A stretch of DNA of 64,000 bases. Source: Chloroflexota bacterium (GTDB taxonomy: Bacteria; Chloroflexota; Anaerolineae; Anaerolineales; Anaerolineaceae). The position numbers and the translations under genes were made by a program. A model generated the notes under the pieces. The model was not told the DNA's origin and did not search any database. It was given only the letters and a program-made list of their open reading frames with translations. Below are positions 5,546 to 46,998 of this stretch, one piece after another (position 1 is the stretch's first letter; each line of letters opens with the position of its first letter). The stretch is from the NCBI GenBank assembly GCA_021825925.1, contig JAKAFP010000002.1, positions 1 through 64,000 on the forward strand, written 5' to 3'.

Positions 5546-7030
5546 TTAATCCAGCAGCTTGATGGCCTGTTGAATTCGATTAAGGACGATATCCTTGCCA
5601 ATGACTTCCATGCTTTCAAAGAGTGGAGGGCTCACTTTTTGTCCAGTAACTGCTACACGCAATATCCCAAATACTTGTCCGGCGCTGAATCCACTTTGCT
5701 CGACCAATTGACGCAGTGGTTCTCCTGCCTGCTCTTTATTAATCCCACCCAGACTGGAAAGGATTTGAAGCATTTGTTTCAAGAGCTGCGCGCATTGTCC
5801 TTTTTCAAGTCCCTTGGCAACCAATTCTTCAGCCGCATAGGAGATCTCGGATTTGAAAAAGAAACCCGCCATATCCACCACATCATCCAAGGTTGGAAGA
5901 CGTTCTTTTAAGATGGGTGCGATCTTGATCAAAGTATCAAGTGATGGCTTATAACCGGCTGCTTCAAGGAAGGGTTTGACCCGGTTCGCCAGATCCTCAT
6001 CGGACAAATTACGGATGTGCAGCCCGTTGAAATAATCCAGTTTGGTGAAATTAATGGCTGCTGGCGACGGATTTAAATGGTCAATGCTGAATTTCTCAAC
6101 CAGGTCTTGCAGTGAGAAGAATTCCGTGTGATCGTCATAACTCCACCCCATGAGTGCCGTCCAGTTAACCACGCCTTCAGGGACGTAACCCAACTCCTCA
6201 AGATCTTTGACAAAAATGGAATGTCCATCTTTCATGGCATCTGCGGTTTCGCGTTTGCTCATCTTACCCTTGCCGCTGGGTTTGAGAAATACGGAAAGAT
6301 GAATAAAGGTGGGTTCAGGCCATCCAAACGCGCGGATGATCTGGGTGTGCAGCGGCAGGCTTGGGAGCCATTCGGAACCTCGGATGACATGGGTGATCTT
6401 CATCAGATAATCATCCACCATGGCAGCCAGGTGGTAAAGCGCCCAGCCATCCGATTTGACCAAAACGCTGTCATCCAGCACCTTGTTCTCAACGGTGATG
6501 TAGCCGCGCAAATGATCATGAACGGTGGTGGAACCGGTTTTTGGCATTTTAAAACGGATCACATACTTCTCTCCCGCGGCGATGCGTTTTCGCGCGTCCT
6601 CCAGGGGAATCTCGCGGCAGGTGCCGTCATAATGCAGGGATTCCTTGTTCGCTTGCTGCGCTTCTCTCACCTTGGCCAAATGGTCAGGGGTGCAAAAACA
6701 ATAGAAAGCATGCCCGGATTCAACCAGCTGCTCCGCGTATTTGGCATAGATCTCTTTGCGCTCAGACTGACGGTAGGGTCCGTAAGGCCCGCCTTTGTCA
6801 GGGCCTTCGTCGTAATCAATGCCAAGCCACTTCAATCCCTTGATCAATTCTTCCTCGGCTTCGGGAACGTAGCGTTTGGTATCGGTGTCTTCAATGCGCA
6901 AGATGAAGGTTCCGCCGGTTTGTCTGGCAATCAGATAATCGTATAATGCTGTACGGGCACTGCCAAGATGCATGTGTCCGGTCGGCGAAGGGGCAAATCT
7001 TACTCTCGCGGGCTGTTTTAGGTCAGTCAT
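5546..7030 (-). CDS. gltX: Glutamate--tRNA ligase
   Basis: Charges tRNA-Glu with glutamate using ATP, in the cytoplasm. The 494-residue length is normal for a class I GluRS. Visible motifs: RFAPSPTGHMHLGSARTAL near the N-terminus (HLGS replaces canonical HIGH), KGKMSKRETAD (KMSKS-type loop) near residue 255, and a C-x-C ... C zinc knuckle (YCFCTP ... GTCREI) around residues 108-140. The C-terminal anticodon-binding helical domain is present. It sits 14 bp behind rodA as last gene of the cell-shape operon and ends in a strong terminator. Whether it is discriminating or also glutamylates tRNA-Gln cannot be told here. Confidence 0.97.
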   Translation of the reverse strand: MTDLKQPARVRFAPSPTGHMHLGSARTALYDYLIARQTGGTFILRIEDTDTKRYVPEAEEELIKGLKWLGIDYDEGPDKGGPYGPYRQSERKEIYAKYAEQLVESGHAFYCFCTPDHLAKVREAQQANKESLHYDGTCREIPLEDARKRIAAGEKYVIRFKMPKTGSTTVHDHLRGYITVENKVLDDSVLVKSDGWALYHLAAMVDDYLMKITHVIRGSEWLPSLPLHTQIIRAFGWPEPTFIHLSVFLKPSGKGKMSKRETADAMKDGHSIFVKDLEELGYVPEGVVNWTALMGWSYDDHTEFFSLQDLVEKFSIDHLNPSPAAINFTKLDYFNGLHIRNLSDEDLANRVKPFLEAAGYKPSLDTLIKIAPILKERLPTLDDVVDMAGFFFKSEISYAAEELVAKGLEKGQCAQLLKQMLQILSSLGGINKEQAGEPLRQLVEQSGFSAGQVFGILRVAVTGQKVSPPLFESMEVIGKDIVLNRIQQAIKLLD

Positions 7031-13379: not shown

Positions 13380-14444
13380 CTATCCACGACCCTTGTTGCG
13401 ATCCAAATTGACCAAATAACGCTCATATTCGCCCAGGTTTTCAAGCACCAACCCGGCGCCGCGCGCCACACAAGTCATGGGGTCATCTGCCACAAAAACG
13501 CGCAGATTCAATTCATCCTTAAGGCGCGGAACGATACCCAACAATTGTGAACCACCGCCGGCCAGGCAGATGCCTGTATCCAGCAGATCAGAGATCAACT
13601 CAGGGGGAACTTCATCCAGTGCATCGCGGAGTGTATCCACGATCACCTGCACTGAACCTGAAAGCGCCTCACGGATTTCTACAGAAGAAACCTCCATCGA
13701 AGCAGGTAAACCAGTGACCAGGTTACGTCCACGCACGACATGAGTTAATTCAGTCTGCAGAGGATAAGCTGAGCCTATGGAAATTTTAACCTGTTCGGCC
13801 ATTCGTTCGCCGATCAGAAGATTGTATTTTTTGCGAATGTACTGCAGGATGTCATCATCCAACTCATCACCGGCCACACGCAGCGAACGCGAAACAACCA
13901 GTTCGCCTGAAGAAAATACGGCAACTTCGGTGGTGCCACCACCAATATCCACGACCATGGTGCCCGGAACGTCTCCAATGGGCAGACCAGCGCCAAGGGC
14001 TGCAGCCACAGGTTCTTCGATCAGATGCGCTTCACGAGCGCCGGCGGCCATGGCGGCATCGTACACGGCGTGCTTTTCAACCTGGGTCGCGCCGGAGGGG
14101 ATGCCCACACAAACACGCGGACGCGGCATCGGCACGATCGTCTGCTGATGTGCTTTGAAGATAAAATACTCAAGCATTTTCTTAGTGATTTCAAATTCAG
14201 AAATTACGCCGTCACGCAGCGGGCGGATGGCTGAAAAATTCGGCGGAGTGCGACCCGTCATTTCTTTTGCAGATGCCCCCACAGCAATCGTCTCATGAGT
14301 CCGTTTGTTAACCACAACCCATGAAGGTTCGTTGATAACGATGCCCTTGCCACGCACGTTTACCAGTGTGTTTGCGGTCCCCAGGTCTATTCCGATGTCA
14401 AGTGAGAAAAAACCCATCAACCAACTCAAGGGATTGGCTGCCAA
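13380..14444 (-). CDS. mreB: Rod shape-determining actin homologue MreB
   Basis: Bacterial actin organising lateral wall synthesis. The 354-residue protein has the phosphate-1 loop GIDLGTANTLVNVRGKG, the MreB-specific EPSWVVVNKRT, MVVDIGGGTTEVAVFSSGELV (phosphate 2) and the adenosine motif CLAGGGSQLLG. The only start compatible with the conserved N-terminus is a TTG at 14444, preceded by TAGGAG seven bases upstream. It has an N-terminal hydrophobic stretch (NPLSWLMGFFS), plausibly membrane-associating. First gene of the nine-gene operon. Confidence 0.96.
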   Translation of the reverse strand: MAANPLSWLMGFFSLDIGIDLGTANTLVNVRGKGIVINEPSWVVVNKRTHETIAVGASAKEMTGRTPPNFSAIRPLRDGVISEFEITKKMLEYFIFKAHQQTIVPMPRPRVCVGIPSGATQVEKHAVYDAAMAAGAREAHLIEEPVAAALGAGLPIGDVPGTMVVDIGGGTTEVAVFSSGELVVSRSLRVAGDELDDDILQYIRKKYNLLIGERMAEQVKISIGSAYPLQTELTHVVRGRNLVTGLPASMEVSSVEIREALSGSVQVIVDTLRDALDEVPPELISDLLDTGICLAGGGSQLLGIVPRLKDELNLRVFVADDPMTCVARGAGLVLENLGEYERYLVNLDRNKGRG

Positions 14445-14683: not shown

Positions 14684-14755
14684 GCGGGTGTCGCCAAGTG
14701 GTAAGGCACCACCTTCCCAAGGTGGTATTCGTGGGTTCGAATCCCATCACCCGCT
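14684..14755 (+). tRNA. tRNA-Gly (anticodon CCC)
   Basis: A full cloverleaf can be folded. The acceptor GCGGGTG pairs with CACCCGC, the anticodon stem CCACC/GGTGG carries the 7-nt loop TTCCCAA (anticodon CCC), and the T-arm GTGGG-TTCGAAT-CCCAT is standard. The discriminator is T and CCA is not encoded. No strong terminator follows directly. The next hairpin-plus-U-tract on this strand is at 18391, beyond the AT-rich cassette, which suggests the gene's own terminator was displaced by an insertion. Confidence 0.95.
14743..14754 (+). repeat. Left candidate attachment repeat inside tRNA-Gly
   Basis: CCCATCACCCGC, the 3' half of the T-stem plus the acceptor strand of tRNA-Gly. It matches 11 of 12 bases with the copy at 18374-18385. 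Confidence 0.45.
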
Positions 14756-14861
14756 CTAATCATCAACCTTATGGGTTATAAAATTTTTGTAGATTATTTG
14801 TTTCTTTACCTTGTTTTTTACCCATGAGTAGTTTTTAAAATTTCTCTATTATTATTTCGAT

Positions 14862-15818
14862 TTATGCTTTTGTTATTTTTGGTCCTATGTAAGCAATATA
14901 TAATGGAATATCTGGAGAAATTGGCCAACTAAAATGAAGACGGAATACACCTTGACGAATTTTTCCATGATATGAACAAAAAACATCATTGCCATTAGGA
15001 TCATGAAAAGTAAGTTGTTGTCGAAAATCATTTTTATTCGTGTCTGATTCGTCTGAAAAAACTGCATCTTTTTTTCTAAAGAAAGAATCAAGAAGTTGAT
15101 CAGATTCTGCAGTCCTTTGACCATCCTCATTAAACCCTACGTGTAATTGCTGCAATATATTCAGTAAAAAAATAACATGCTTTGCGATAACGTGGTTAAA
15201 TGGTTCTTGCTTTAATCTTTCCAAAATTCCATCAAGAAATATCAAATCCGGAAAATGCACGGTTGCGAACTCCAACATCATTCTCCAAGATGTTATTGGT
15301 TTTTCATAATTCTTTAAATATTCTTGTAGAGGTTGTTTTTCCCAATAATTTTGAACATCACAATTTAATGTATTTCTTGCGTCTCGATGCCATAAAACTT
15401 TAAGAGGATTAATTAAGAAATTTGAAGGCACTAAACTTATTGTAGCTGCTTGACTATAAACTATTGAGTGATAAGCAGCCTCAGCAATCGAACTATCCGT
15501 GACTAAATCATTTTCATATTCAAAGATTTCTTCTTCAGAATGCTCTCGAATTCCATCTTCATCCCAAAATGGACCATCTTTTGCGATCCACGACAAGGTA
15601 GAGCTAAATAAGTTTTTATCAGGTTGGTTAGATATCACACTTATAAATATCGTTTCCGGTATTACCATGCAACTTAATAATGACCTTTGGCAATATAAAG
15701 GATATCCTTTAATGTTAATTTCATTCTTCAAGAGTAACAATTTTTGTAAAGAATTAACAAAAGTTCCAACTTCATGGAATTGTCCATGTATTGACTTTTC
15801 ATTAAAAAAGAATGCCAT
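14862..15818 (-). CDS. Unknown protein, third gene of the DUF262-ATPase cassette
   Basis: I do not recognise this 318-residue protein. It is soluble, with no signal peptide or membrane helix. It has an acidic central part (KDGPFWDEDGIREHSEEEIFEYEND) and a helical middle. The compact C-terminal segment from about residue 265 (LTFHDPNGNDVFCSYHGKIRQ ... RLHFSWP ... PLYIAYIGPKI) looks like a small alpha/beta domain with conserved-looking His, Arg and Tyr residues. Six bases separate it from the ATPase stop and its ATG follows GGGGATAAAG, so it belongs to the same transcript. It could be an effector or an adaptor for the ATPase; nothing in the sequence decides this. Confidence 0.7.
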   Translation of the reverse strand: MAFFFNEKSIHGQFHEVGTFVNSLQKLLLLKNEINIKGYPLYCQRSLLSCMVIPETIFISVISNQPDKNLFSSTLSWIAKDGPFWDEDGIREHSEEEIFEYENDLVTDSSIAEAAYHSIVYSQAATISLVPSNFLINPLKVLWHRDARNTLNCDVQNYWEKQPLQEYLKNYEKPITSWRMMLEFATVHFPDLIFLDGILERLKQEPFNHVIAKHVIFLLNILQQLHVGFNEDGQRTAESDQLLDSFFRKKDAVFSDESDTNKNDFRQQLTFHDPNGNDVFCSYHGKIRQGVFRLHFSWPISPDIPLYIAYIGPKITKA

Positions 15819-15824
15819 TTATCT

Positions 15825-17000
15825 TTATCCCCAATTAATTAAAGCAAAATTATCCTTATCAAATTGATCAAAAAAACCTTCTGGCCAATAGTCCAAATTC
15901 CCCATTGAATCAATTACAGGTGAAACAATATTAACCTCATCATATTCTTCTTGCTGATTGGGTTGCATAAAGAAATGAATACCTACTTGATCTGAACCTA
16001 ACAATTTTTCTTTTACCGCAATGCGAATGCCATTTAATATATGATCACTATGTGTCTCTATTATCATCTGAATTCCCGAAGCAGCACAATTTGCCAAAAA
16101 TCTACCCATCATTGCTTGACCGGAAGGATGAAGATGAGCCTCAGGGTTTTCAATCATGATAATTTGTCCTTCATTTGCATGAAGTCCAGCGGTCAATATG
16201 GGTAATACGTGTGTTAATCCATATCCAACATTTTGTGGTCTATGAAATGATGTTGCTATATTTGTACGCAATCCTAAGGTTACAAGGTTTGTGTTTTCAA
16301 TAGGGGTAACTTGAATATTAGTTCCAGGGAAAAAAAGATTCATCCATGCTTCAACTTGTCTATCAAGCCTTTTGCTTAAACCATCAATCAACAATTTTTT
16401 TTGGGGGATTTGCTCAGCAAAATTACGTAAAACCCAAGGAGTATTTTCTCCATGTGGACCAACATTAATAAAACTATCAACTATCGTAACCGGATAAATC
16501 TCTCGCGGCCCCCAGCGCTCAGCAGAAAGATAAGTCAACTCCAAAAACCATTTTTCAACTTGCTTTGCCCAAGGGTATGAATGCAAACTAGTTGGGATCA
16601 AATGATTTATTTTTGTTTTTTCATTGATTCTTTTTTTACCAACATTATCACTAGATTGCCATGAAAAACAGGTTATAGGTATAGAAAGGGATGACCTCTC
16701 CTGATAATTCATTTCCCAATTACATTCAAAGTCATCGCCTTGAATTCCAATACTTAATTGTTTCTTACCGCTTAACTTATCACTTATATCGCCAGCATTG
16801 CCAAGTGAAATTACCGACCCATTTAGTAAGAGGGATTTTGAAGCTTCGTTATCGGTCGCTGTTTGATGGAGAAGGGTCAATGATTGTAAAACTGTGGATT
16901 TACCAGCAGCATTAATACCTGTCAACAAGGTTAATTGAGAGAGTGGCAATGACACATGTTTAAAGCACTTAATGTTTCTTAATGTTATTCGCCTGATCAT
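15825..17000 (-). CDS. AAA ATPase with DUF3696-type C-terminus (OLD/RecF-like)
   Basis: SMC/OLD-like ATPase of 391 residues. It begins with RITLRNIKCFKHVSLPLSQLTLLTG and the Walker A GINAAGKST (residues 28-36). Walker B IIMIENPEAHLHP lies at about 276-290, and the switch motif IETHSDHILNGIR near 315. The C-terminal ~45 residues (IDSMGNLDYWPEGFFDQFDKDN) match the DUF3696 signature. Such ATPases are frequent sensors in anti-phage modules. Its ATG overlaps the DUF262 gene by 4 bp, implying coupled translation. The gene is AT-rich. No nuclease domain is fused, so a partner must supply any effector activity. Confidence 0.85.
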   Translation of the reverse strand: MIRRITLRNIKCFKHVSLPLSQLTLLTGINAAGKSTVLQSLTLLHQTATDNEASKSLLLNGSVISLGNAGDISDKLSGKKQLSIGIQGDDFECNWEMNYQERSSLSIPITCFSWQSSDNVGKKRINEKTKINHLIPTSLHSYPWAKQVEKWFLELTYLSAERWGPREIYPVTIVDSFINVGPHGENTPWVLRNFAEQIPQKKLLIDGLSKRLDRQVEAWMNLFFPGTNIQVTPIENTNLVTLGLRTNIATSFHRPQNVGYGLTHVLPILTAGLHANEGQIIMIENPEAHLHPSGQAMMGRFLANCAASGIQMIIETHSDHILNGIRIAVKEKLLGSDQVGIHFFMQPNQQEEYDEVNIVSPVIDSMGNLDYWPEGFFDQFDKDNFALINWG

Positions 17001-18094
17001 TCTTTCAACTCCGTAAATATTTCTTCAGCCAATTCAAAACGCGATAATACCCTAGGTAAGTCATTTGTAGCGAGCGTAATGGAAGCTAAAAAGGTTGGAT
17101 TATTCATGAGTATATAAAACTTTTGTTGAAATTGAGTTGCATGTTTTTTTACAAAATCAGTGGAATACTTAGTCATTATGCAAGACATCACATCAAATAA
17201 AGCAATATTAATAACACTTCGCTTACTATTTACTGAATTGTGTTTTCTAAAAGAGTGTTTTCCAAAAATTATTAGGTTATTTTTCATACTCCGCAGAAAA
17301 GTAGTTTCGAGTTCATTTAATTTTGCTTCATCAAATTGATTCATATACACAAGGGTTGATGCAAGAAAATCATCCATATCATCTGAATATTTTGTGTAAC
17401 CCAATAAAAAGAATCCACAAAAACGATTAATTACTTCCCGGTCACGCATTGTTTTTGGATTTAAACTTCCGTCAGTCGCAGCAAGAAATATTTCACTCAA
17501 TGCTTGTTTTTTCAACCAGCGAGTTGCTGGACCATTATTTAGGGAATTTCTCATTTGTTGTCGGCTTAATGGAATTCCGCTATTTACGCGTTCAAAAATA
17601 TCCAACCGAGCGCGTTCAGGTACTTTAGAGTCGATTAAATAAACGATTAAGTTAGTATCTTCAATACGAGCTTGATATTGTTGCGGAAGACTTGAAAATT
17701 TCTTGCCATTAAGTTTTGACTTTGGTATTTTTAATGAAAACTCATCTTTAAGATATCGTCTAAAAGTCATAAGACGTTGCAACCCATCAACAACAATTAT
17801 TTTTCCAGAATCTTGCTCTGCAAGATAGAAAACGGGTAACGGAATACGCATTAATACAGATTCTATTAATCTACTTTGACGATCTTCTTTCCATACAAAA
17901 TCCCTTTGAAAATCAGGATCTAGAATATATGCTTTTTTATCAATTCTTCGCATGATCTCATATACGGTACGTTGCTCAGGACGAATTAGTAAGCTGTCCA
18001 AAGGATAAGCAAACCCTTTGTCCATTTGTAAGTCTAATCCTTCGGGTTCTTCATATACTTTTTGTGAATCTGATTCGGTATTTGAATTACTCAT
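16997..18094 (-). CDS. DUF262 domain protein (GmrSD N-terminal-like, ParB/Srx fold)
   Basis: The 365-residue protein carries the DUF262 hallmarks DPDFQRDFVWKEDRQSRLIES (about 59-79) and VVDGLQRLMTFRRYL (about 101-115). Most relatives read DGQQR, so Gln-to-Leu is a small deviation in the presumed nucleotide-binding loop. DUF262 is the NTP-hydrolysing half of GmrSD-type type IV restriction enzymes and occurs in several defence modules. The DUF1524 HNH nuclease half is absent, the remaining C-terminus being helical. ATG start with AGGTGGAAA upstream. First gene of the cassette. Confidence 0.85.
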   Translation of the reverse strand: MSNSNTESDSQKVYEEPEGLDLQMDKGFAYPLDSLLIRPEQRTVYEIMRRIDKKAYILDPDFQRDFVWKEDRQSRLIESVLMRIPLPVFYLAEQDSGKIIVVDGLQRLMTFRRYLKDEFSLKIPKSKLNGKKFSSLPQQYQARIEDTNLIVYLIDSKVPERARLDIFERVNSGIPLSRQQMRNSLNNGPATRWLKKQALSEIFLAATDGSLNPKTMRDREVINRFCGFFLLGYTKYSDDMDDFLASTLVYMNQFDEAKLNELETTFLRSMKNNLIIFGKHSFRKHNSVNSKRSVINIALFDVMSCIMTKYSTDFVKKHATQFQQKFYILMNNPTFLASITLATNDLPRVLSRFELAEEIFTELKE

Positions 18095-18113
18095 TTTCCA
18101 CCTATTTTTCTGA

Positions 18114-18133
18114 GTTTATTAATATTAATAAAC
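18114..18133. promoter_or_regulatory. Perfect 20-bp palindrome upstream of the DUF262 gene
   Basis: GTTTATTAATATTAATAAAC is fully self-complementary and starts 20 bp before the cassette's first ATG, just outside the ribosome-binding site. It could be an operator bound by a dimeric repressor or a leader hairpin controlling the cassette. The surrounding gap 18095-18453 holds no gene. It is extremely AT-rich up to about 18360, then holds the attachment-like repeat and the terminator. Confidence 0.6.
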
Positions 18134-18177
18134 AATTTACTAATACTAATATTTTTTTATATTGTTAACGTTTTTCA

Positions 18178-18205
18178 TAAATAGCTTAACTTTTTTTTCA
18201 GTCAA
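18178..18205 (-). promoter_or_regulatory. Candidate promoter of the DUF262 cassette
   Basis: On the minus strand TTGACT, a 16-bp A-rich spacer and TATTTA resemble a sigma70 promoter. Transcription would start near 18171 and run through the 20-bp palindrome. The AT-richness makes chance matches likely. Confidence 0.35.
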
Positions 18206-18373
18206 CAAATCCTATTTTCGACTTTTTAATCTTCATTATATATAATAATTAAAAGAATATCCAAGTTTTTTGATTCTTAGGGTTAAATTTTTTATCATTT
18301 GTTAATAATACCAAAAATATATTCCATTTTTCTACCCTCCAGCGTATAAAAAAGTATTCTTTTGAAATTGTTA

Positions 18374-18385
18374 CCCATTACCCGC
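18374..18385 (+). repeat. Right candidate attachment repeat
   Basis: CCCATTACCCGC, one mismatch to the tRNA-Gly 3' end and in the same orientation. It is followed by ACCA, resembling a discriminator base plus CCA, and then by a terminator. Confidence 0.45.
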
Positions 18386-18390
18386 ACCAG

Positions 18391-18453: not shown

Positions 18454-18642
18454 ATGGATTTAAACATTAATGGGATTTTACTGGCCGTCGCCACATTTGG
18501 CATTGTGTATATGTTTCCCATTATCAAAATGCGGAAGAACAAGGTTCCGATCACGTTGACTTCGCACAACATGGTGATCGCAGCGGTCACACTGGTGGCC
18601 TTCTATTTTATCTGGACAGGTGTGTTGGGATTGATCAAATAG
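18454..18642 (+). CDS. Small membrane protein of unknown function
   Basis: A 62-residue product with two hydrophobic helices (about 6-24 and 42-60) separated by a basic loop KMRKNKVPITLTSHN. The ATG has AAAGAGG nine bases upstream, and a terminator hairpin follows the gene. TACAAT at 18419-18424 is a possible -10. The topology resembles small two-helix proteins, but no family is recognised. Confidence 0.55.
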   Translation: MDLNINGILLAVATFGIVYMFPIIKMRKNKVPITLTSHNMVIAAVTLVAFYFIWTGVLGLIK

Positions 18643-18793: not shown

Positions 18794-19174
18794 ATGCCGG
18801 AACCTAAAACAATTCTTCACATCGAAGACAACCAGGATAACCGGGTGCTCGTCCGCAGATTGCTGCAATCAGAGCAATACCGCGTCATTGAAGCAACCAA
18901 TGCTTTTGAAGCGATTGATTGTCTGCGCCGTTGTTCACCTGACTTGATCCTGATGGACATTAACATACCCGATGTGGACGGCTACACTCTGACCGCCAAG
19001 CTCAAGACGATTCCGCGTGTCAAGAATGTGCCCATCGTGGCAATCACCGCTAATGTGCTGCGTGGAGACCGTGAAAAGACCCTACGTGCCGGTTGCGATG
19101 GCTATATTGAAAAACCGATTGATGTTGAAAAGTTCCTGGTACAGGTGGCCTACTTTTTGGGATTAAAAGTCTGA
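18794..19174 (+). CDS. Single-domain response regulator (CheY-like)
   Basis: Receiver domain only, 126 residues. The acidic pocket is HIEDN near the N-terminus, the phospho-acceptor is D55 in LILMDINIPDVDGY, the switch Thr/Ser lies in IVAITANVL and the conserved Lys in GYIEKPIDVEKF. The ATANVL/YIEKPI pattern is that of receivers from hybrid-kinase phosphorelays rather than of transcription factors. There is no output domain. ATG with GAGGAA upstream. First in a head-to-tail run with GAF proteins, ParA and a hybrid kinase, so it probably relays or drains phosphate from that kinase. Confidence 0.9.
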   Translation: MPEPKTILHIEDNQDNRVLVRRLLQSEQYRVIEATNAFEAIDCLRRCSPDLILMDINIPDVDGYTLTAKLKTIPRVKNVPIVAITANVLRGDREKTLRAGCDGYIEKPIDVEKFLVQVAYFLGLKV

Positions 19175-19274
19175 TCTGGAGGGAATTCTTTATTCGTATG
19201 GACGCTAATGATCGTTCCACTTCCAATGTTAATCTAATTTACTGCGCTGCTGGATAATCCATTGAGGAGCCGAT

Positions 19275-20012
19275 ATGCCGGATCGTGAAGAAAAACACAG
19301 CATCCTCCCCTCTCGTCATGCTGACCCCAAAACACAAGGCCTGTATGCTGCCCTGGATGGCATAAAAAATCTCAATTCCGCCCTTCTTCCCCTGGAAAAC
19401 GTGGCCAATCAAATCACGGCTACAACCCGATCCACGTTAAAAGTACCTTGTGTGGCCCTCTGGCTGGTGGATGACTTGCGTCAATGGATCGCCTTGCAAG
19501 CCTTTGCCTGTGCGGACTCTGCAGAAACAAACCCCAAGAAATACAACATTAGTATTGATGATGAATCGTCCCCGGTCGCAGCCTGCATAAAAGCGAATAA
19601 GGCATCGCTTCATAAAAAACAAACCATTAGCGAAATGGATCCAAGATCCGGCATTCTTACCAAAACTTATGTCACTGCGGTAATTCCACTCAGGACTCCC
19701 TCAGGTATCGTCGGGGTTTTTGAAGTATTGACCAATGCAAACGACCCTCTTAATAATGATGAATTGGAAAGTCTCGAAGTACTGGCATCCCAGGTTGCTC
19801 TGTTGGTTTCAAATCACCAGACCTCTGACCACTCTGCCAGACAGTCAGCTCTACAGAAACAACTCTACGAAATTACCTCCAAAATCAACCAGGCTAAAGA
19901 CTACGAATCCATCTTGCAGATCGCGGTCGAAGAGCTTTGTACTGCACTCCATCTTCCCGGTGCTTCAATGCATGTCAACATGTCGGCTGTGGGCGAGGAG
20001 CATAAACCATGA
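19275..20012 (+). CDS. GAF domain protein
   Basis: A 245-residue protein with one recognisable GAF domain at about residues 35-180. It shows the PCVALWLVDD strand, the exposed loop KKYNISIDDESSPVAACI, and VTAVIPLRTPSGIVGVFEVLTN followed by the helix LEVLASQVALLV. The C-terminus (YEITSKINQAKDYESILQIAVEELCTALHL) is the start of a second sensor module that ends abruptly. The same motif closes the next protein, so the two look related by duplication. It overlaps the next gene by 4 bp. No enzymatic domain; probably a ligand or redox sensing partner. Confidence 0.75.
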   Translation: MPDREEKHSILPSRHADPKTQGLYAALDGIKNLNSALLPLENVANQITATTRSTLKVPCVALWLVDDLRQWIALQAFACADSAETNPKKYNISIDDESSPVAACIKANKASLHKKQTISEMDPRSGILTKTYVTAVIPLRTPSGIVGVFEVLTNANDPLNNDELESLEVLASQVALLVSNHQTSDHSARQSALQKQLYEITSKINQAKDYESILQIAVEELCTALHLPGASMHVNMSAVGEEHKP

Positions 20013-21127
20013 GCGGATTGTCCTCCTTCTTCCAACGCTTCAAGAAAGCCAATGTTCAAACCGGTGCCCTGCAGCCCCAAACTGGAGAATTGAACAGTGA
20101 AAACGAAATCCTGCAGTCATACATGCAGACCGCCATGGACCTCTCACGTCTGGCAGCAGGAACATCAGGCGACCTGGTTTTGATCAAGGAAATTTGCGAC
20201 CTTCTACAACAACGCTGTCTGCTGCATTATGTCGGTGTCTTCTTGATAGATAATGCCCGTGAGTACGCGGTTCTTCAATACGGCACCGGCGACCAAGGGC
20301 GGCAGATGCTTTCTGCCAGCTACCGGCTTGCCACCGGAGGGTATTCGCTCGTAGGCAAATGCATCCAGTCCAGAGAACTGACCTCTCTAATCACTGATGA
20401 GTCAAACCCATCCCGGTTTGAAAACCCGTTTTTACCGCAATCCCGCTTTGAACTTGCCCTTCCCTTGATCAGAAATGATCAACTTCTGGGTGTGCTGGAT
20501 ATCCATTCCGCGGCCGCCAGGGCGTTGGATGAAAAAATCGTCACCCTTTTGCAACAGGCTGCCAATCTGCTCGCCATTTCGCTGCAAAAACCCGCTCTGC
20601 CTAAACAGTCAAAAGGGAGTGGTTTTCTAAACCTGGATGAATTGCAAACAACGGTTAAGAACGAAGTCCAGGAAGTGTCTGTAAATTACACAAATTCAGC
20701 ATATCTCAAACCACGCCTGAAAAATGCCATTCACGCCATTCCGCTCGTGCTGCACCACGAGACCATCGGCAGTCTGGACCTGGAACTGGATGACCTGGAA
20801 TGGAGCGCGGAAAATGAACAATTCGCGCAGGCGGTTGCTGCCCAGACACTTACCGCACTGGAAAATGTCAGACGTCTTGACCAGATCATCCATCATGCTG
20901 AACGAGAACGCCGGATCCTTGAGATCACCTCAAAGATCCGATCTACCAATGATTCCCAGAAGATGCTGCAAATCGCTCTCGAAGAGATCAGCAGCCACCT
21001 TGGCGTTTCACAAGCCCAAATTGTCTTGAACGTACCTGAAGTTCCACGCACCACGGAACAACTTGAAAACTCAAACACTAAATCACTGCAGAGAAAGATG
21101 ACCACCGGCCAACTGCCAGAGCTTTGA
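20009..21127 (+). CDS. GAF domain protein with two GAF-like modules
   Basis: A 372-residue protein. The first GAF is at about 40-195 (CDLLQQRCLLHYVGVFLIDNAREYAVLQYGTG ... ELALPLIRNDQLLGVLDIHS). A degenerate second one lies at about 205-300 (HAIPLVLHHETIGSLDLELDDLEWSAENEQFAQ). Then comes the segment RRILEITSKIRSTNDSQKMLQIALEEIS, typical of the linker before a further module, and a Thr/Gln-rich tail. No kinase or cyclase domain. ATGA overlap with the preceding gene and 7 bp to parA indicate co-translation. Confidence 0.75.
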   Translation: MSGLSSFFQRFKKANVQTGALQPQTGELNSENEILQSYMQTAMDLSRLAAGTSGDLVLIKEICDLLQQRCLLHYVGVFLIDNAREYAVLQYGTGDQGRQMLSASYRLATGGYSLVGKCIQSRELTSLITDESNPSRFENPFLPQSRFELALPLIRNDQLLGVLDIHSAAARALDEKIVTLLQQAANLLAISLQKPALPKQSKGSGFLNLDELQTTVKNEVQEVSVNYTNSAYLKPRLKNAIHAIPLVLHHETIGSLDLELDDLEWSAENEQFAQAVAAQTLTALENVRRLDQIIHHAERERRILEITSKIRSTNDSQKMLQIALEEISSHLGVSQAQIVLNVPEVPRTTEQLENSNTKSLQRKMTTGQLPEL

Positions 21128-21134
21128 GGAAACG

Positions 21135-21896
21135 ATGACCAGTGTGATAGCAATCGCCAATGAAAAAGGCGGCGTCGCCAAAACCACCACTGCCCTCTCA
21201 CTCGGGGGAGCGCTGGTTGCACTTGGTTATCGGGTGCTGATGGTAGACCTCGATCCGCAAGCCAATCTTTCTTTGGCGCTTGGGTGTGAGACCCATACGG
21301 GAACAAAATCTTTTATCAACCTGGTGATGGAAAATCTTTTGCTTGATAAGGTGCTGATTAAAACTGAAATTCAGGGCCTTGATCTGCTTCCAGCCAACAA
21401 AGAAATTGGATTTGCCGAACGCGTATTACCCACCAGACCTGAATATAGGAATTTGCTGCGTAAAATCGTCGCTAACGAAAAAGACTATGATTTTGTGGTC
21501 ATAGATTGTCCGCCATTCTTGGGCACACTGACCACCAATGCCCTGACCGCTGCCAACCTGTTAATCATCCCCACTCAGGCGGAATATTTCTCTGTCTATG
21601 CCTTGCGCAACATGATGAGCCTGATCAGGGAAGTGCGCAAAAAAGGCAATCCAACCTTGCGTTACCGTTTGCTGATAACACTCTTTGACAAACGCAATAA
21701 GATCCACCGCACATTGTATGCGCACCTGCGCCAGACCTTTGTCGGCGGCGTGCTGGACTCCATTATTGAAGTAGACACAAAATTACGCGAAAGCGTAATC
21801 GCTGGCTTGCCAATTATTTTCCATGCAAAAAAAAGCCGTGCAGCCATGCAGTATTCCTTCCTCGCCCAGGAGATCATTCACTATGCCAAGGAATAA
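21135..21896 (+). CDS. ParA/Soj-family ATPase
   Basis: A 253-residue P-loop ATPase with deviant Walker A ANEKGGVAKTTTALSL, Walker A' DLDPQANLSLALG and Walker B DFVVIDCPPFLG. The next block, TNALTAANLLIIPTQAEYFSVYALRNM, is typical of Soj-type chromosome or cargo-positioning ATPases. No parB or parS is visible here. Sitting between GAF proteins and a giant hybrid kinase (14-bp overlap with the kinase gene), it may position a signalling complex on the nucleoid rather than segregate DNA. That role is inferred from context only. Confidence 0.85.
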   Translation: MTSVIAIANEKGGVAKTTTALSLGGALVALGYRVLMVDLDPQANLSLALGCETHTGTKSFINLVMENLLLDKVLIKTEIQGLDLLPANKEIGFAERVLPTRPEYRNLLRKIVANEKDYDFVVIDCPPFLGTLTTNALTAANLLIIPTQAEYFSVYALRNMMSLIREVRKKGNPTLRYRLLITLFDKRNKIHRTLYAHLRQTFVGGVLDSIIEVDTKLRESVIAGLPIIFHAKKSRAAMQYSFLAQEIIHYAKE

Positions 21897-24800
21897 GATT
21901 GATACCCGCCTGGACAAATTCTTCTCGGACTTTAATCCGAATGAAGAATCAGCTGAGATTCCCAGCTTGGATGCAGGTGACACTCCCGTTTACGCCTGGG
22001 AAACCGACCCGAATGGACTTATCACAGTTTGTGATGAAGGCATCCATAAAGTGCTTGGACTTTCCCCTGAGCAGGCATTAGGCAATCCGCTGATCTCGTT
22101 CCAACTTGCCGCCAGAGAACAATCCAAAATTCGAATTGCGCTGCAAAATGAACCCTTTCCGTTGGAAATCGAGTTAGCTGCGCTAGCTGCAGATGGCAAA
22201 AAACACATGGTGCGCTACACCATCTATCACAAACTTGATGAGGATGGTCAGGTTCAAGGATTTCGCGGCTATTGTGAACTATTGGCCGCTGAAAAAAAGC
22301 CAAAAACTGGCACAAAACGAGCAAGCCCCAAAAAGGTTCAAACCGCCCCTCTGACGGAATCAAGTGAAACTTCACCCAAAAAGGACACCAAAGATCTTGC
22401 GCCGTTAGAAGAACACACCTCTCCTTTGATCCATGAAGATTCCTCAGACGCTGAACCGACAAAGAAAAAGTCAGTAAAGAAACGCAAAACAGCTTTTGAA
22501 AGTGATGTCATCCAACAGACCAGAGAATTATCCGCCTGGGATGCCGGGATGACCAAAACACTGACCTTGTTACAGGACACAGGTGAAATGGATCGAGGCA
22601 GAACCTCACTGCCGATCAACAGCAAAGACCTGGCCGGTATTTCACTGGTTAAAAACAATTTTGATATCTCATCCACGGTTTGGACGGCACAAGCCCAGGC
22701 CAGTTTTGAAGACAACAAATTGGTCGCCATCTCTTCAGTAAACGGAAAACCAGCGATCCTGGCAGCCCCCTTGAATTTGCGCGATGAGAAGAAGGGTGTC
22801 ATCGAGATCATTGATGATAAACCTAACCGCGTTTGGACAGATGAAGACCGCCTCTTTTTACAGGAAATCTCGCATCAATTGGGTTTGGCACTTGAAAACT
22901 CGCAGTTGTATTCGACCATTCAAAAAGAGCTTTCGGAGCGCGTCAAAGCTGAACGTGAAACTCTGCGCCGCAACAAAGATCTTTCAAATCTCAATCAGAT
23001 CGGCCAGCAATTAAGCCAATTGGTCAATCAGGACCAGATATTTGAAACCATCGCCCCGATGGTTCAAAAAATGTTGAATGTTGAGAATCTTCTACTGACC
23101 CTGGTGGATAAAAATAAAACGGAGCTCAGTTTTCCTGTCTGCTTGGTTAACGGTATCAATGTAAACCTTGCACCCCGTTCTCTGCAGCAGGGTTACCAGG
23201 AAACCATGCTTGAAGACCGAAAGCCGCTGTTAATCAATAGGAATTTGGCTTCAACACTGAGTGAAACAAAATTTGACCACGCAAACTATCTGCCTTATTC
23301 GCTTCTGGCAGTGCCACTGCTGGCCGGGGATCGCGCCACCGGAGTGCTGTCGGTTTTTGACTATCAAAACGAAGATGCCTTTGACCAGGTGCAGATCGAG
23401 CTTCTCTCTAGTGTAGCCGCGCAGGTTGCCACAGCTCTCGAAAACGCAAAACTTTTTAATGAGATCACCAACGCCCTGCAAATAATTGAAAACCGTCAGC
23501 GGGTTCAAGGCAATGTAACGGATGCCGTCGCCGAACTAAGTCTCAAGGGTTCAGGTGAGATCAAATCCTTCTTGAGATCGCTGGCTCAGGCTAGTTTATG
23601 CGAACGAGCCATCTTTGCCGAGATCCACGATCAAAGTTGGCAGATGATAGCCAGCTATACCTCTCCAGAATCGAATCTTGTTGATGGCACAAGTGTTTAT
23701 CCAGACCTGGCCGTTGAACAACTTCAAGAAGCCATGCTTGACCTGCAAAAAAAGGGCTGGCATTCTCGCACACTGGATAACGCATCAGAACCCGAGAAAA
23801 AATGGTTGATGTCTAACCAAATTCAATCTGTACTTATCCTTGCCGTTAAACGGGATAGCCAGCTGGATGGTTTTATCGCACTTGAAAAACATGCCTCGGT
23901 TGAAGAATGGAAGATTGAAGAGATAGATATTCTCCGAACGGCATCAGAAGCCTTTGCAAACACCTTGATCCGTGAAGACCTGTTGAAACAGCTGCGCGGA
24001 TCGTTGAGTGAGACTGAAAACCTCTACAGCGCTTCTCACCAATTGGCTCTGGCAAGCACCATGCAAGAGATGATCATGGCGGTCATCAGCAGTTTTTCTG
24101 CCTCTGAGGTGGATCGCGGCGAGATCGTGCTCTTTGACTACAACATGGAAGGCCGCATTTCACGTATGACGATGGTTGCCAATGCTTCAGACGATAGTAT
24201 CAAACCAACCAATTTAACAGGTCATGAATATGAGGTTGATCTTTTTGAAAAACTATTTTCATCTCCATCACCTGTTTATTACGATCACCTGGCCGATGCG
24301 TTCATTGATGACCTTGTAAAACAGCAATTCCAGAGTTGTGGGGTTTATTCTTTGGCGGTACTGCCCTTGTGGAGCGTAAACGTTCAGACCGGGGTGCTGC
24401 TGTTGGAGACCAGCAAACCACATCGCTTCTCCACGCTGGAAAAACGTACTTACCCACCGCTGGTGGATCAAATGTCCACGGCCATTCAGAATCTACGTCT
24501 GTTTGAAAGCACCCAGATCGCACTGGCTGAAACCGAACTGCTTTTCAGAATTTCCAGCGGGATAGCGAATTCCTCCAGTATGGAAGAGTTGGTGACCCTG
24601 GTGGGTGAGAATGCCATGCCCAAAAACTGCGAATCGCTGCAGTTATATATTGCCTCAGATGCCCGCTCTTCTCAATCACCTGATTTTTCGCTGGTGGGGA
24701 CCTATTCAACCGGCTCAGAACCACGCATCACCAGCCAAAAGCTGCCTGCCAGCGCATTGCCGTTTTTAGAGTTTCCCTCCAAAGAACCAATCCTGCTGAA

Positions 24801-27063
24801 CGACACAACCAATGGAGATCTGCCTGTCGTTTCGCAGACCTTTTTTAGAAATGCAGGCATCGCCGCGGCTATTTTCATTCCACTGCAAACAGCCACAAAT
24901 CCTGTCGGGTTCATTCTTGCCAGTGCCTCAAGAGCCGGCCAATTGGATCCCAAAGATGCACATACACTGCAAATCATCGGAAACAGCATTGCCGTAGCAA
25001 TTGAACGTCAACGATTGTTGTTTGAGGCGCAGCGTCGCGCATTGGAGCTGCAGACCGCCGCTGAGATCGCCAGGGACACCACGAGTACTTTATCGCAAGA
25101 TATTCTATTAAGCCGCATCGTCAACCTGTTAAAGGACCGCTTCGGCTATTATCACTGTTCCATTTTCCTGCTCAATGAATCCAATCAATATGCGATCATT
25201 GAGGAATCCACCGGTGAAGCCGGTAAATTGATGAAAGAAAACAAGCACCGCCTGGCTGTCGGTTCAAAATCAGTGATCGGATCATGCCTGGCCAGTGGAC
25301 AGCCCATTATTGTCAACGATTCCAATTTAAGCCCGGTTTATTTTCCCAATCCGCTACTGCCTGATACGCGCTCTGAGATGGGCATTCCGCTGAAAATCGG
25401 TGGTCACATCATCGGTGCCCTGGACCTGCATTCGAGTACTACCAATGCCTTCTCGGAAAATGAACTGACCGTGCTTCAAATCCTTACCGACCAGATCTCG
25501 GTGGCCATTGAAAACGCCCGCGCATTTTCCATCTCGCAAAAGGCCGTGCAGGAGATGCGTGAACTGGATCGGGTGAAGAGTCAATTCCTCGCCAATATGA
25601 GCCACGAACTACGCACGCCGTTAAACTCGGTCATTGGCTTTTCAAGGGTAATCCTCAAAGGCATTGATGGACCGATCAATAAAGTTCAAGAACAGGATAT
25701 CACCTCCATCTACAACTCGGGGATGAACCTGCTCAACATGATCAATGAGATCCTTGATCTCTCAAAAATTGAAGCCGGCAAGATGGAACTGCAGCTTGAA
25801 GACATCAGCGTTGCCGAAGTGATCACAAAAGCGGTCTCCACCGCCACTGGTTTAATTAAAGATAAACCGATTGAATTGATCCAAAAGGTCCCCACTGACC
25901 TGCCATCTGTTAAGGCTGACGAGATCAAGCTTGGCCAGGTGGTTTTGAACTTGTTGTCAAATGCCATTAAGTTCACCGAAAAAGGCACCATCACCATTGA
26001 AGCCGAACTTACCAAGGATGAAAACTTGAACCCTGCCCTCAGAGTTCTAGTGACTGATTCCGGGGTGGGCATCGCGCCTGCAGATCAATCCAAACTCTTC
26101 CAGCGCTTCTCACAAGTGGATGATTCACCCACTCGTAGAACGGGTGGTACCGGCCTTGGACTTTCCATCTGCCGTTCGCTGATCGAATTGCATGGTGGCG
26201 AGATCGGACTCTTAAGCAGCCAGCCGGGCAAGGGCAGTGTCTTTTATTTCACCCTGCCGGTGATCGGCTACCGTAAGGGGTTGGATCTGAATACACTTGG
26301 TCACGGTGAGAATGTGATCCTGTCCATTGATGATGATCCACAGGTTATTGGTCTATACGAAAGGTATCTTAAAAATTACGGTTTTGAAGTGGTGGCACTC
26401 ACCAACCCCTCCAAGGCGGTTGAAAAAGCCATTGAACTTAAACCGTTCGCCATCACCCTCGATATCATGATGCCGCAAGTGGATGGCTGGCAGGTGCTGC
26501 ACGAACTTAAACAGGATGAACGCACCCGCGACATCCCCATCCTGGTCTGTTCCATCCTCGAGGAAGAAGATAAAGGCTTTAATCTGGGTGCTTCGGAGTA
26601 CCTGGTCAAACCCTTCCTGCAAGATGACCTGATCAACGCAATTCACCGCATCAACCGCGAAGGTCATTCCATGGAAGTGTTGATCATTGACGATGATGCT
26701 GACGATCTCAAATTCGTCAAGAAAATGGTTGAAACCGAGCCTCGTATCCATCCCACCCTGGCCCAGGGCGGCAAGATCGCTCTGGATATTCTCAGAAATC
26801 TGACACCCGACCTGATCGTTTTGGATCTGTTCATGCCGGATATGAACGGTTTTGAAATTTTGGATCACTTTAAATCCGACCCACGATTGGCGAAGATTCC
26901 AGTGATCGTGTTGACGGGTGCGGACTTGACCCCTGAACAAAAAGCCCAGCTGGCTGAATCCAGTCAATCGCTGGCCACGCACGGTCTGATCAAAGAGAGT
27001 GATATTCTAAAGAATATGGAAGAGGCACTTGAGAAGATCAAACCGCTGGCGAAAGAAAAATAA
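21883..27063 (+). CDS. Hybrid histidine kinase, PAS-(GAF)6-HisKA-HATPase-REC-REC
   Basis: A 1726-residue cytoplasmic kinase. The ATG at 21883, with AGGAG upstream and inside the parA end, is chosen over an in-frame ATG 60 bp earlier that has no ribosome-binding site. Modules: PAS at about 33-135, a Lys/Ser/Pro-rich linker to 215, then six GAF-type modules at roughly 216-340, 370-522, 540-700, 715-873, 885-1043 and 1058-1213. The H-box has phospho-acceptor His1241 (SHELRTPLNSVIGF). The HATPase is at about 1345-1450 (N-box LLSNAIKF, G-boxes DSGVGIAP and TGGTGLGLSI). The first receiver has Asp1527 (LDIMMPQVDGW) and the second Asp1648 (LDLFMPDMNGF). No transmembrane helix is seen, so it senses internal signals. 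The domain stack is unusually long. Confidence 0.92.
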   Translation: MPRNKIDTRLDKFFSDFNPNEESAEIPSLDAGDTPVYAWETDPNGLITVCDEGIHKVLGLSPEQALGNPLISFQLAAREQSKIRIALQNEPFPLEIELAALAADGKKHMVRYTIYHKLDEDGQVQGFRGYCELLAAEKKPKTGTKRASPKKVQTAPLTESSETSPKKDTKDLAPLEEHTSPLIHEDSSDAEPTKKKSVKKRKTAFESDVIQQTRELSAWDAGMTKTLTLLQDTGEMDRGRTSLPINSKDLAGISLVKNNFDISSTVWTAQAQASFEDNKLVAISSVNGKPAILAAPLNLRDEKKGVIEIIDDKPNRVWTDEDRLFLQEISHQLGLALENSQLYSTIQKELSERVKAERETLRRNKDLSNLNQIGQQLSQLVNQDQIFETIAPMVQKMLNVENLLLTLVDKNKTELSFPVCLVNGINVNLAPRSLQQGYQETMLEDRKPLLINRNLASTLSETKFDHANYLPYSLLAVPLLAGDRATGVLSVFDYQNEDAFDQVQIELLSSVAAQVATALENAKLFNEITNALQIIENRQRVQGNVTDAVAELSLKGSGEIKSFLRSLAQASLCERAIFAEIHDQSWQMIASYTSPESNLVDGTSVYPDLAVEQLQEAMLDLQKKGWHSRTLDNASEPEKKWLMSNQIQSVLILAVKRDSQLDGFIALEKHASVEEWKIEEIDILRTASEAFANTLIREDLLKQLRGSLSETENLYSASHQLALASTMQEMIMAVISSFSASEVDRGEIVLFDYNMEGRISRMTMVANASDDSIKPTNLTGHEYEVDLFEKLFSSPSPVYYDHLADAFIDDLVKQQFQSCGVYSLAVLPLWSVNVQTGVLLLETSKPHRFSTLEKRTYPPLVDQMSTAIQNLRLFESTQIALAETELLFRISSGIANSSSMEELVTLVGENAMPKNCESLQLYIASDARSSQSPDFSLVGTYSTGSEPRITSQKLPASALPFLEFPSKEPILLNDTTNGDLPVVSQTFFRNAGIAAAIFIPLQTATNPVGFILASASRAGQLDPKDAHTLQIIGNSIAVAIERQRLLFEAQRRALELQTAAEIARDTTSTLSQDILLSRIVNLLKDRFGYYHCSIFLLNESNQYAIIEESTGEAGKLMKENKHRLAVGSKSVIGSCLASGQPIIVNDSNLSPVYFPNPLLPDTRSEMGIPLKIGGHIIGALDLHSSTTNAFSENELTVLQILTDQISVAIENARAFSISQKAVQEMRELDRVKSQFLANMSHELRTPLNSVIGFSRVILKGIDGPINKVQEQDITSIYNSGMNLLNMINEILDLSKIEAGKMELQLEDISVAEVITKAVSTATGLIKDKPIELIQKVPTDLPSVKADEIKLGQVVLNLLSNAIKFTEKGTITIEAELTKDENLNPALRVLVTDSGVGIAPADQSKLFQRFSQVDDSPTRRTGGTGLGLSICRSLIELHGGEIGLLSSQPGKGSVFYFTLPVIGYRKGLDLNTLGHGENVILSIDDDPQVIGLYERYLKNYGFEVVALTNPSKAVEKAIELKPFAITLDIMMPQVDGWQVLHELKQDERTRDIPILVCSILEEEDKGFNLGASEYLVKPFLQDDLINAIHRINREGHSMEVLIIDDDADDLKFVKKMVETEPRIHPTLAQGGKIALDILRNLTPDLIVLDLFMPDMNGFEILDHFKSDPRLAKIPVIVLTGADLTPEQKAQLAESSQSLATHGLIKESDILKNMEEALEKIKPLAKEK

Positions 27064-31137: not shown

Positions 31138-31147
31138 TTCTGTCAGG

Positions 31148-31220
31148 GGTGGCTTATGGGGGTCGAACCCACAACCCTCGCATCCACAGTGCGATGCTCT
31201 GCCATTGAGCTAAAGCCACC
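31148..31220 (-). tRNA. tRNA-His (anticodon GTG)
   Basis: On the minus strand the acceptor GTGGCTT pairs with AAGCCAC, flanked by an encoded G at -1 and C73, the histidine identity pair. The D-arm is TAGCTCAATGGCAGAGC. The anticodon stem TCGCA/TGCGA carries CTGTGGA (anticodon GTG), and the T-arm is GTGGG-TTCGACC-CCCAT. CCA is not fully encoded. It lies 33 bp downstream of hisS on the same strand with no terminator between, so it is probably processed from the hisS transcript. Confidence 0.95.
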
Positions 31221-31253
31221 ATGAGCGAAAGGATTTTATCACAGCCTTAAGGG

Positions 31254-32522
31254 TTAGACAAGCATTTGCTTGATCTTGATTACAGCCTCTTCCCGCATGA
31301 GCGTTTCCTGCGTTCCACTTTTCAGATCTTTCAACGTAACTTTGCCTTCAGCATCTTCATCAGGGCCAATCACGACTGCCCATTCGATGCCCAACCGGTC
31401 TGCATATTTGAACTGCTTCTGCAGTTTGGAAGTTTCAGGATAGCAGATGGTTTTGACGCCATTCGAACGGAGTTCTGAAGCAAACCCGACAGAACTCAAC
31501 ATCAATGATTCATCAAAAACTGTCACCAGTGCGGTTTTTTCAAAAGCACCAAACTGAGGCAGCAAGCCGTATTTTTCAAGAATGACGGTGATCATCATGT
31601 CACCCATGGCAAAACCAACGCCGCCGAGCGGCGAACCGCCCACATCTCCGATCAGGTTTGAATAGTGACCGCCGCCCAATACGGAACGGCCGTCGCCGCC
31701 AACATCCCAGGCTTCAAACACCAGCCCGGTGTAATAATCCAATCCGCGGATGATCTTGGGATCATAAACGACATATTCCGCAATGCCCATTTTTTCAAGG
31801 ATAGAAAACACTTTGCAGAGATAGGCTGATTCACGCCAGAGTTCCTTGTTTTCAAGCAGTGCCACGACCCCTTCCAACTGCTTTTGCGTCAATCCGGCTT
31901 CAAGGGCTGTTGCTTCCCATTTATCGTAGGGCATTTTGTCTTTGCGGTCAATCAGTCTGAACACTGCCTTCTTTAGGTCACTGACCACGCCCAGTGTGCC
32001 AAGTTCGGTATCAATCAACTCACGATGATTGACCAACACCTTGACCTGGTCTGGGGTGACATTCACCGATTTCAGGAACTTCACGCAAATGCCCACCAAC
32101 TCGGCATCCGCTTCAGCAGATTCGACACCGATCATATCAATGTTCCACTGGAAGAATTCGCGTGAACGTCCCTTTTGTGGACGTTCGTAGCGCCAGAAGG
32201 GTCCAAAAGACCACCAGCGCAGTGGGTAGGTCAATTCGTTTTGCTTTTGCGCCACCATGCGCGCCAGTGATGGGGTTAATTCAGGCCGTAGGGTGATCAG
32301 GTCTCCACCCCGGTCAGGGAAGACAAATGACTGTTCTTTAACCAGTTCCTCACCAGATTTGGCGGCATAGAGGTCAATTTTTTCCAGAAATGGACCATCC
32401 CATTCTTCATAACCAAATTGGGTGGCAATGGCCTCGATCTTCGCATACAACCAGCGTCTCAATTCCATCTGCCTGGGATAAAACTCCCTGGTTCCTTTAA
32501 CAGGCTGAATTAACGTTTTCAT
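31254..32522 (-). CDS. hisS: Histidine--tRNA ligase
   Basis: Class II aminoacyl-tRNA synthetase charging tRNA-His. In 422 residues it shows the N-terminal PVKGTREFYPRQ, motif 2 (WSFGPFWRYERPQKGRSREFFQWNID), the histidine-binding signature IRGLDYYTGLVFEA, motif 3 (GGGHYSNLIG ... GVGFAMGDMM) and the C-terminal anticodon-binding domain (TVFDESLM ... DRLGIEWAVVIGPDE). ATG preceded by AAGGAA. A plausible extended -10 (TGTTAAAAT, hexamer at 32556-32561 on the minus strand) lies 34 bp upstream. Co-oriented with tRNA-His. Confidence 0.97.
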   Translation of the reverse strand: MKTLIQPVKGTREFYPRQMELRRWLYAKIEAIATQFGYEEWDGPFLEKIDLYAAKSGEELVKEQSFVFPDRGGDLITLRPELTPSLARMVAQKQNELTYPLRWWSFGPFWRYERPQKGRSREFFQWNIDMIGVESAEADAELVGICVKFLKSVNVTPDQVKVLVNHRELIDTELGTLGVVSDLKKAVFRLIDRKDKMPYDKWEATALEAGLTQKQLEGVVALLENKELWRESAYLCKVFSILEKMGIAEYVVYDPKIIRGLDYYTGLVFEAWDVGGDGRSVLGGGHYSNLIGDVGGSPLGGVGFAMGDMMITVILEKYGLLPQFGAFEKTALVTVFDESLMLSSVGFASELRSNGVKTICYPETSKLQKQFKYADRLGIEWAVVIGPDEDAEGKVTLKDLKSGTQETLMREEAVIKIKQMLV

Positions 32523-38720: not shown

Positions 38721-38785
38721 TTGAAGCGGAGTACTAAGTTCTTCCCTTCAATTTGATCAAACCATCAGAGCCGAGGAGGAGAAAC

Positions 38786-39265: not shown

Positions 39266-39277
39266 GAGGAGACTGAC

Positions 39278-40912: not shown

Positions 40913-40946
40913 AAATTTTTGTATTTTTGACAGGAGCGTAACAATA

Positions 40947-42899: not shown

Positions 42900-42917
42900 G
42901 CAAGAGAAGGAGAGATA

Positions 42918-43460: not shown

Positions 43461-43475
43461 GTAAGGAGTCATTAA

Positions 43476-44906: not shown

Positions 44907-44933
44907 CAGAAGACGGTAAAGTACAGTAAACTG

Positions 44934-44972
44934 AAACGCGATGCTGCAGAAAACTTGCACATCGCGTTTTTT
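44934..44972 (+). terminator. Intrinsic terminator after the hydrogenase structural genes
   Basis: AAACGCGATG pairs with CATCGCGTTT (10 bp), with an inner TGCA/TGCA pairing, and is followed by TTTTC. It lies 27 bp past the large-subunit stop and 15 bp before the maturation protease gene, so protease expression probably depends on readthrough. Confidence 0.8.
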
Positions 44973-44986
44973 CTAAAAGGAAAAAC

Positions 44987-45475: not shown

Positions 45476-45491
45476 AGAGAGGGGATGATCA

Positions 45492-46337: not shown

Positions 46338-46463
46338 AAGTAAACTAACCCAGTCATATTATTGATGACAGGCTACTCTTAGCTGTATGACGGAAAACAC
46401 TTTCTGCGCCTGGCACTTGATGTTATCTTTGAATAAGAAGGAATTTGTTTAGACAGGTTTATC

Positions 46464-46952: not shown

Positions 46953-46998
46953 GCTCGACCTTTAATCTCAAATCACCCCAATTCAGTCGGATTAAGAG

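Follow-up and report, generated by a model that had tools for sequence, protein, structure and literature searches.

The first 64,000 nucleotides of contig JAKAFP010000002.1 from a Chloroflexota bacterium of the family Anaerolineaceae (this whole stretch is here called the window) carry a cassette of three genes at positions 14862 to 18094. The locus raises two questions: whether the cassette is an undescribed defense system, as a preliminary description of the sequence had proposed, and which of its three proteins acts as the effector. All three proteins match named PADLOC models nearly over their full length, namely, NsnA (E-value, 3e-117; profile coverage, residues 28 to 363), NsnB (6.8e-111; 1 to 389), and NsnC (1.2e-100; 1 to 317). 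NsnA, NsnB, and NsnC are what we take to be the genes of Menshen, which was reportedly described by Millman et al. in 2022 and whose domain polymorphism is said to be the subject of Li et al. 2025. We are nearly certain that the cassette is the Menshen (NsnABC) antiphage system; the locus is one more Menshen/ptuXYZ system, in Chloroflexota, and not a new one. Thus, the trio is of the defense type, as had been suspected, and the claim that it is undescribed falls because it matches an already named system in full. As to the effector, NsnC is probably of the RelE type, judging from the predicted structure of its C-terminal domain.

The nsnABC cassette

Our analysis establishes the identity of the cassette, the intactness and order of its genes, their nucleotide-binding motifs, and its insertion. 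The three genes lie on the reverse strand. nsnA (16997 to 18094) encodes a DUF262 protein of 365 amino acids (a ParB/Srx-fold NTPase), as assigned from its open reading frame (ORF), a GmrSD_N match, the PADLOC NsnA model, and an AlphaFold2 (AF2) model. nsnB (15825 to 17000) encodes an OLD/PtuA-type ABC ATPase of 391 amino acids (ORF, AAA_15, AAA_21, and PADLOC NsnB), and nsnC (14862 to 15818) encodes the third protein, of 318 amino acids (ORF, PADLOC NsnC, and an AF2 model). Each ORF begins with ATG and contains no internal stop, and all three proved intact at exactly the positions first described. nsnA and nsnB overlap by 4 nucleotides (nt), nsnB and nsnC are separated by 6 nt, and a purine-rich stretch lies upstream of each of the three starts. 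The AT richness remarked on at the outset is borne out: the GC content of the trio is 33.9%, compared with 48.0% for the window excluding the 14757-18387 insert (see below), and the minimum among 540 other windows of 3233 bp is 40.3%. In NCBIfam, the nsnA and nsnC products were unmatched, and the nsnB product stayed below the cutoff in all 25 matches listed.

Distribution and gene order of NsnABC loci

A one-scan NsnB search returned 20 loci, distributed over several phyla. Among 400 sampled Chloroflexota genomes, 39 match the NsnB model at an E-value of ≤1e-30, and the scores show a clear break: 16 places in 14 genomes, including that of the window, lie at ≤5.8e-97, and the rest lie at 8e-69 or weaker. 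Viral contigs hold 24 loci with NsnB and 38 with NsnA-like proteins. Among the carriers are a Peduoviridae (P2-like) Vibrio phage with an integrase and a Psychrobacter plasmid of 7.6 kb; chromosomal copies in Escherichia coli adjoin either a cytosine methyltransferase and a Vsr gene or an Abi gene.

Of 76 loci examined, 59 (including the window) were usable: they encode NsnA and NsnB on the same strand, are not exact duplicates of one another, and leave sufficient sequence downstream of nsnB. Clustering at 90% NsnB identity divides them into 54 groups. nsnA is upstream of nsnB in all 59. A third ORF of at least 200 amino acids, whose start lies in the interval from 119 nt upstream to 83 nt downstream of the nsnB end, is present in 56 of them; in the other three (L022, L039, and L045), the third gene survives only as broken or truncated pieces, and in one of these (L039) nsnA and nsnB are also broken. 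The third gene is therefore not absent from homologous loci, and because the same gene order recurs across several phyla, the trio is far beyond chance. Nine of 10 diverse third proteins match an NsnC model of PADLOC, the exception being that of L029. In L045, all that is left of the third gene is a short ORF after nsnB (6068 to 6349) that corresponds to the NsnC C-terminal module. On some viral contigs (L135 to L139 and L143 to L149), the gene for an NsnA-like DUF262 protein is followed not by a recognized NsnB gene but by others; these are possibly PD-T4-2-like or other DUF262 pairings.

NsnC carries a predicted RelE-like C-terminal domain

The third protein had been called unrecognized, which is correct for Pfam (no family at an E-value of ≤1), NCBIfam, and PHROGs, none of which gives it a family name, and incorrect for PADLOC, whose matching model (PDLC03896) is one of many NsnC subfamilies. 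The compact C-terminal domain noticed earlier is RelE-like in the predicted structure (AF2 model with a predicted local distance difference test [pLDDT] score of 85.6). This RelE/YafQ-like domain comprises residues 189 to 318 (14865 to 15254, reverse strand), with conserved H284, K286, R293, and K314. The best VIA rows for the model of this domain are YafQ, RelJK, RelE, and YoeB, with ParE structures also listed, and the top Foldseek row is ParE2, which is not significant. The model thus places the C terminus of NsnC in the RelE/ParE superfamily (BECR) fold. The positions H284, K/R286, R293, and K/H314 are kept in a set of 16 rows and less so in 31 rows; their spacing, by which alone the two proteins were compared, resembles that of what we take to be the corresponding RelE residues, K52, K54, R61, and R81. 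In the relatives, Gp49 or ParE Pfam matches at an E-value of ≤0.1 were found in 3 of 30 third proteins, and the matching stretch sits at the same C-terminal end. The N-terminal domain of NsnC (residues 1 to 172; 15303 to 15818, reverse strand) gave weak matches, to the Chp1-Tas3 core and isochorismatases.

NsnC is the fastest-changing protein of the three. Pairwise comparison of 22 loci (231 pairs) gives mean identities of 37.5% for NsnA, 37.9% for NsnB, and 19.1% for NsnC, and NsnC has the lowest identity in every pair. In 115 of the 120 pairs from an alignable subset of 16 third proteins, conservation of the C-terminal module exceeds that of the N-terminal part (28.2% versus 17.6%). The third proteins of L049 and L053 are 50% identical for about 245 residues (3e-77), after which the agreement drops to 11 of 48 residues: that of L049 (4047 to 5009) ends in a module of the window type, and that of L053 (2846 to 3706) ends in a ParE-like stretch (ParE_toxin, 8.2e-4; 20.3 bits, under the Pfam cutoff of 23). 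On sequence grounds, this contrast looks like an exchange of the C-terminal module, with rapid divergence as the alternative.

NsnA and NsnB have intact nucleotide-binding motifs

The preliminary description had recognized a DUF262 protein without the HNH half and an OLD-like ATPase without a nuclease domain, and both assignments stand. In NsnA, Pfam finds GmrSD_N (DUF262) at 9.7e-23; the domain spans residues 47 to 184 (17543 to 17956, reverse strand) and contains the motifs QR (63-64), DGLQR (103-107), and FxxxN (167-171), which are named in passages of PMC12137116 and PMC4619093. Q63, D103, G104, Q106, R107, and N171 are invariant in 25 of 25 proteins, and R64 and F167 are found in at least 90%. 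GmrSD_N was present in all 25 NsnA proteins scanned, and DUF1524 (HNH) was present in none of them, nor was it among the nine families matched. The AF2 model of NsnA (pLDDT, 82.9) has fold matches to BrxU, SspE, and ParB; its second half is all helical, and no second nuclease domain was seen in it.

NsnB has 10 Pfam matches in total, among which are AAA_15, AAA_21, and DUF3696, the last at the C terminus (residues 336 to 384; 15849 to 15995, reverse strand); Toprim is not one of the 10, and no such family appeared in the Pfam scans of NsnA, NsnB, and NsnC. G28, N30, GKS (33-35), and E284-N285-P286-E287 are invariant in 28 of 28 NsnB proteins, and the nucleotide-binding motifs are intact in both NsnA and NsnB. 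The NsnB profile also hits the structure of an OLD protein (1.6e-17), with its best stretch at the start of the ATPase (profile positions 1 to 44).

Insertion at tRNA-Gly

The cassette sits on a small, horizontally acquired insert at a tRNA gene. The tRNA-Gly(CCC) gene (14684 to 14756, forward strand) points its 3' end toward the cassette and forms the edge of the insertion; the insert (14757 to 18387) has a GC content of 32.7% and is flanked by this gene and a response-regulator gene. The gene at 13380 to 14444 (mreB by eye) and the adjacent tRNA-Gly stay paired in relatives. From the tRNA to the response-regulator gene, the distance is about 134 to 268 bp in all three same-genus relatives sampled (L072, L073, and L074) and in a family member (L079), and about 426 bp in L078, compared with 4037 bp in the window; L075 to L077, where the response-regulator gene was not found, are outside this comparison. 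In the same-genus relatives, the site is empty, and the extra distance in the window is the cassette. Among 61 genomes of the host family, two have NsnA-type matches, and only that of the window has NsnB and NsnC alongside.

A candidate right attachment repeat (18374 to 18387, forward strand) shares 12 of 14 bases with the 3' end of the tRNA-Gly (14743 to 14756). Markov resampling reached that score once in 2000 trials for the right gap and three times in 400 trials for the whole stretch, and one second site of that quality exists within the 64-kb window, at 9617. Because of these counts and the other site, an att-like origin of the repeat is suggested rather than asserted. No integrase is present with the cassette. 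With PADLOC at 1e-5, 9 of 10 neighbor genes were unmatched, and the tenth (the response regulator) gave a weak match over its receiver part; as far as their sequences tell, the surroundings are not a defense island. Between the insert and the response regulator lies an ORF of 62 amino acids (18454 to 18642, forward strand) that occurs in 1 of the 61 family genomes (its own) and may belong to the insert.

Farther along the forward strand (18794 to 27063), the response regulator and a GAF protein are followed, by eye, by a GAF-type protein, a ParA-like ATPase, and a sensor kinase of 1746 amino acids. A tRNA-His gene directly adjoins a histidyl-tRNA synthetase-like gene (31146 to 32522, reverse strand), and a NuoF/HoxF-like gene and HypF stand in one stretch (36939 to 50335, forward strand), which is probably a hydrogenase with maturation genes.

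Proposed mechanism and alternatives

We propose that NsnA (the ParB/Srx-fold DUF262 NTPase) and NsnB (the OLD/PtuA-type ABC ATPase) would form a nucleotide-gated complex that keeps NsnC inactive and senses infection, whether as foreign or altered DNA or as a nucleotide change. Once triggered, the complex would release or remodel NsnC, and the freed RelE/YafQ-like C-terminal domain would then be the effector; its most likely action is mRNA cleavage, by which the infected cell would be shut down. The fast-changing N-terminal part may tie NsnC to its partners or to a phage signal. A Menshen cassette on a tRNA-Gly insert, with a caged NsnC toxin as its effector, is the best explanation as a whole, and we consider it rather likely; that NsnC is specifically the ribonuclease effector has about an even chance. 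The earlier suggestion that the third protein is the effector of a distinct system therefore survives in part: because its compact C terminus is RelE-like in the predicted structure, NsnC may well be the effector, and the system is not distinct.

The effector might instead be NsnA, whose ParB/Srx fold would nick DNA or consume nucleotides, with the fast-evolving NsnC serving as the phage sensor. Being the least conserved protein in all 231 locus pairs is what is expected of a sensor, and NsnA is strongly conserved with complete motifs; moreover, nuclease activity in ParB/Srx relatives is noted in part of PMC4619093, and a passage of the review PMC10952713 reports that mutation or deletion of the DUF262 gene abolishes Menshen protection. 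However, the fast part of NsnC is the N-terminal one, whereas the C-terminal module is better conserved, keeps its charged residues, and is toxin-like, and the all-helical second half of modeled NsnA offers no second nuclease domain. Conservation, resemblance to toxins, and apparent exchangeability all fall on the C terminus of NsnC, so the evidence leans toward NsnC, and an NsnA effector is the less likely reading, though one to be taken seriously. It is improbable that the NsnC domain is ParE-like and blocks DNA gyrase or merely binds a partner without cutting RNA. The ParE_toxin stretch of L053, the ParE structures among the VIA rows, and the nonsignificant ParE2 row of Foldseek speak for it, but the best rows (YafQ, RelJK, RelE, and YoeB) belong to mRNA-degrading families, and ParE toxins lack the RNase residues, according to portions of the 2025 RelE/ParE toxin survey PMC11980606, whereas NsnC keeps its His and Lys/Arg set.

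Very improbable is a third possibility, in which NsnB is a nuclease of the OLD type and NsnA and NsnC are regulatory. In PMC10952713, the partner of the Menshen DUF262 gene is predicted to be a nuclease of the OLD type, and the NsnB profile does match an OLD structure; yet that match is best over the ATPase start, and the protein, of 391 amino acids, ends in DUF3696 and lacks Toprim among its Pfam matches. As for a distinct system, the missing Pfam, NCBIfam, and PHROGs names of the third protein would fit it, but the full-length matches to all three Nsn models refute it, leaving it a negligible chance, and the same architecture is in print as ptuXYZ (in part of PMC11980606).

More tentatively, and at somewhat less than even chances, Menshen and ptuXYZ may be one family of three-part toxin-antitoxin switches. 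NsnC would then be a RelE/YafQ-like ribonuclease caged by the other two proteins, a DUF262 NTPase and an OLD-type ATPase, and its toxin module (window type, Gp49-like, or ParE-like) would be exchanged between subtypes while the rest of the operon is constant. If this is true, the missing effector of this class is a toxin that cleaves RNA rather than a nuclease that cleaves DNA. In NsnC, which Pfam does not recognize, the four conserved residues of the toxin-like C-terminal domain are open to individual substitution, by which the weapon among the three proteins could be identified.

Comparison with known systems

Type IV restriction systems of the GmrSD/BrxU/SspE kind combine DUF262 with DUF1524; GmrSD was rejected because the HNH (DUF1524) domain is absent from all 25 NsnA proteins scanned. 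PARIS (AriA), Gabija (GajA), and Septu (PtuA) likewise pair an OLD/PtuA-type ABC ATPase with a separate effector, but their profile matches are far weaker than that of NsnB, and by Pfam the trio has neither Toprim nor an HNH partner. The PtuB-type partner in Septu is HNH. An OLD nuclease of the Gabija/PARIS type was rejected, as no Toprim domain or partner was found in the Pfam scans of the three proteins. Type II toxins of the RelE/ParE (BECR) superfamily share the predicted fold of the NsnC C-terminal domain, but in NsnC this domain follows a large N-terminal part of the same protein, and the genes beside it encode two NTPases where a small antitoxin would be expected.

No feature was found that distinguishes the cassette from Menshen: besides the three model matches in the same order, the window also has a DUF262 protein without DUF1524 and an OLD-type ATPase. 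According to PMC11980606, a ptuXYZ operon (17 have been published) encodes first a DUF262 protein that lacks DUF1524 and then a P-loop ATPase; its third product starts with a PIN-like domain, described as inactive, continues through a helical linker, and ends in a BECR domain of the HigB/YoeB-like kind. Menshen is not named in the main text of that survey. Compared by description, the window agrees in its DUF262 protein, its P-loop ATPase, and the layout of its third protein, in which an N-terminal domain precedes a toxin-like (BECR) domain at the C terminus. That last domain is recognized by predicted structure and not by Pfam, and residues 1 to 172, which by position correspond to the PIN-like domain, gave only the weak matches mentioned above. 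The third protein of L032 has both a Gp49 domain (RelE superfamily, 1.2e-10) and a full-length NsnC match (PADLOC, 1.3e-91). Judging from the shared architecture and this protein, Menshen and ptuXYZ look like two names for one kind of locus.
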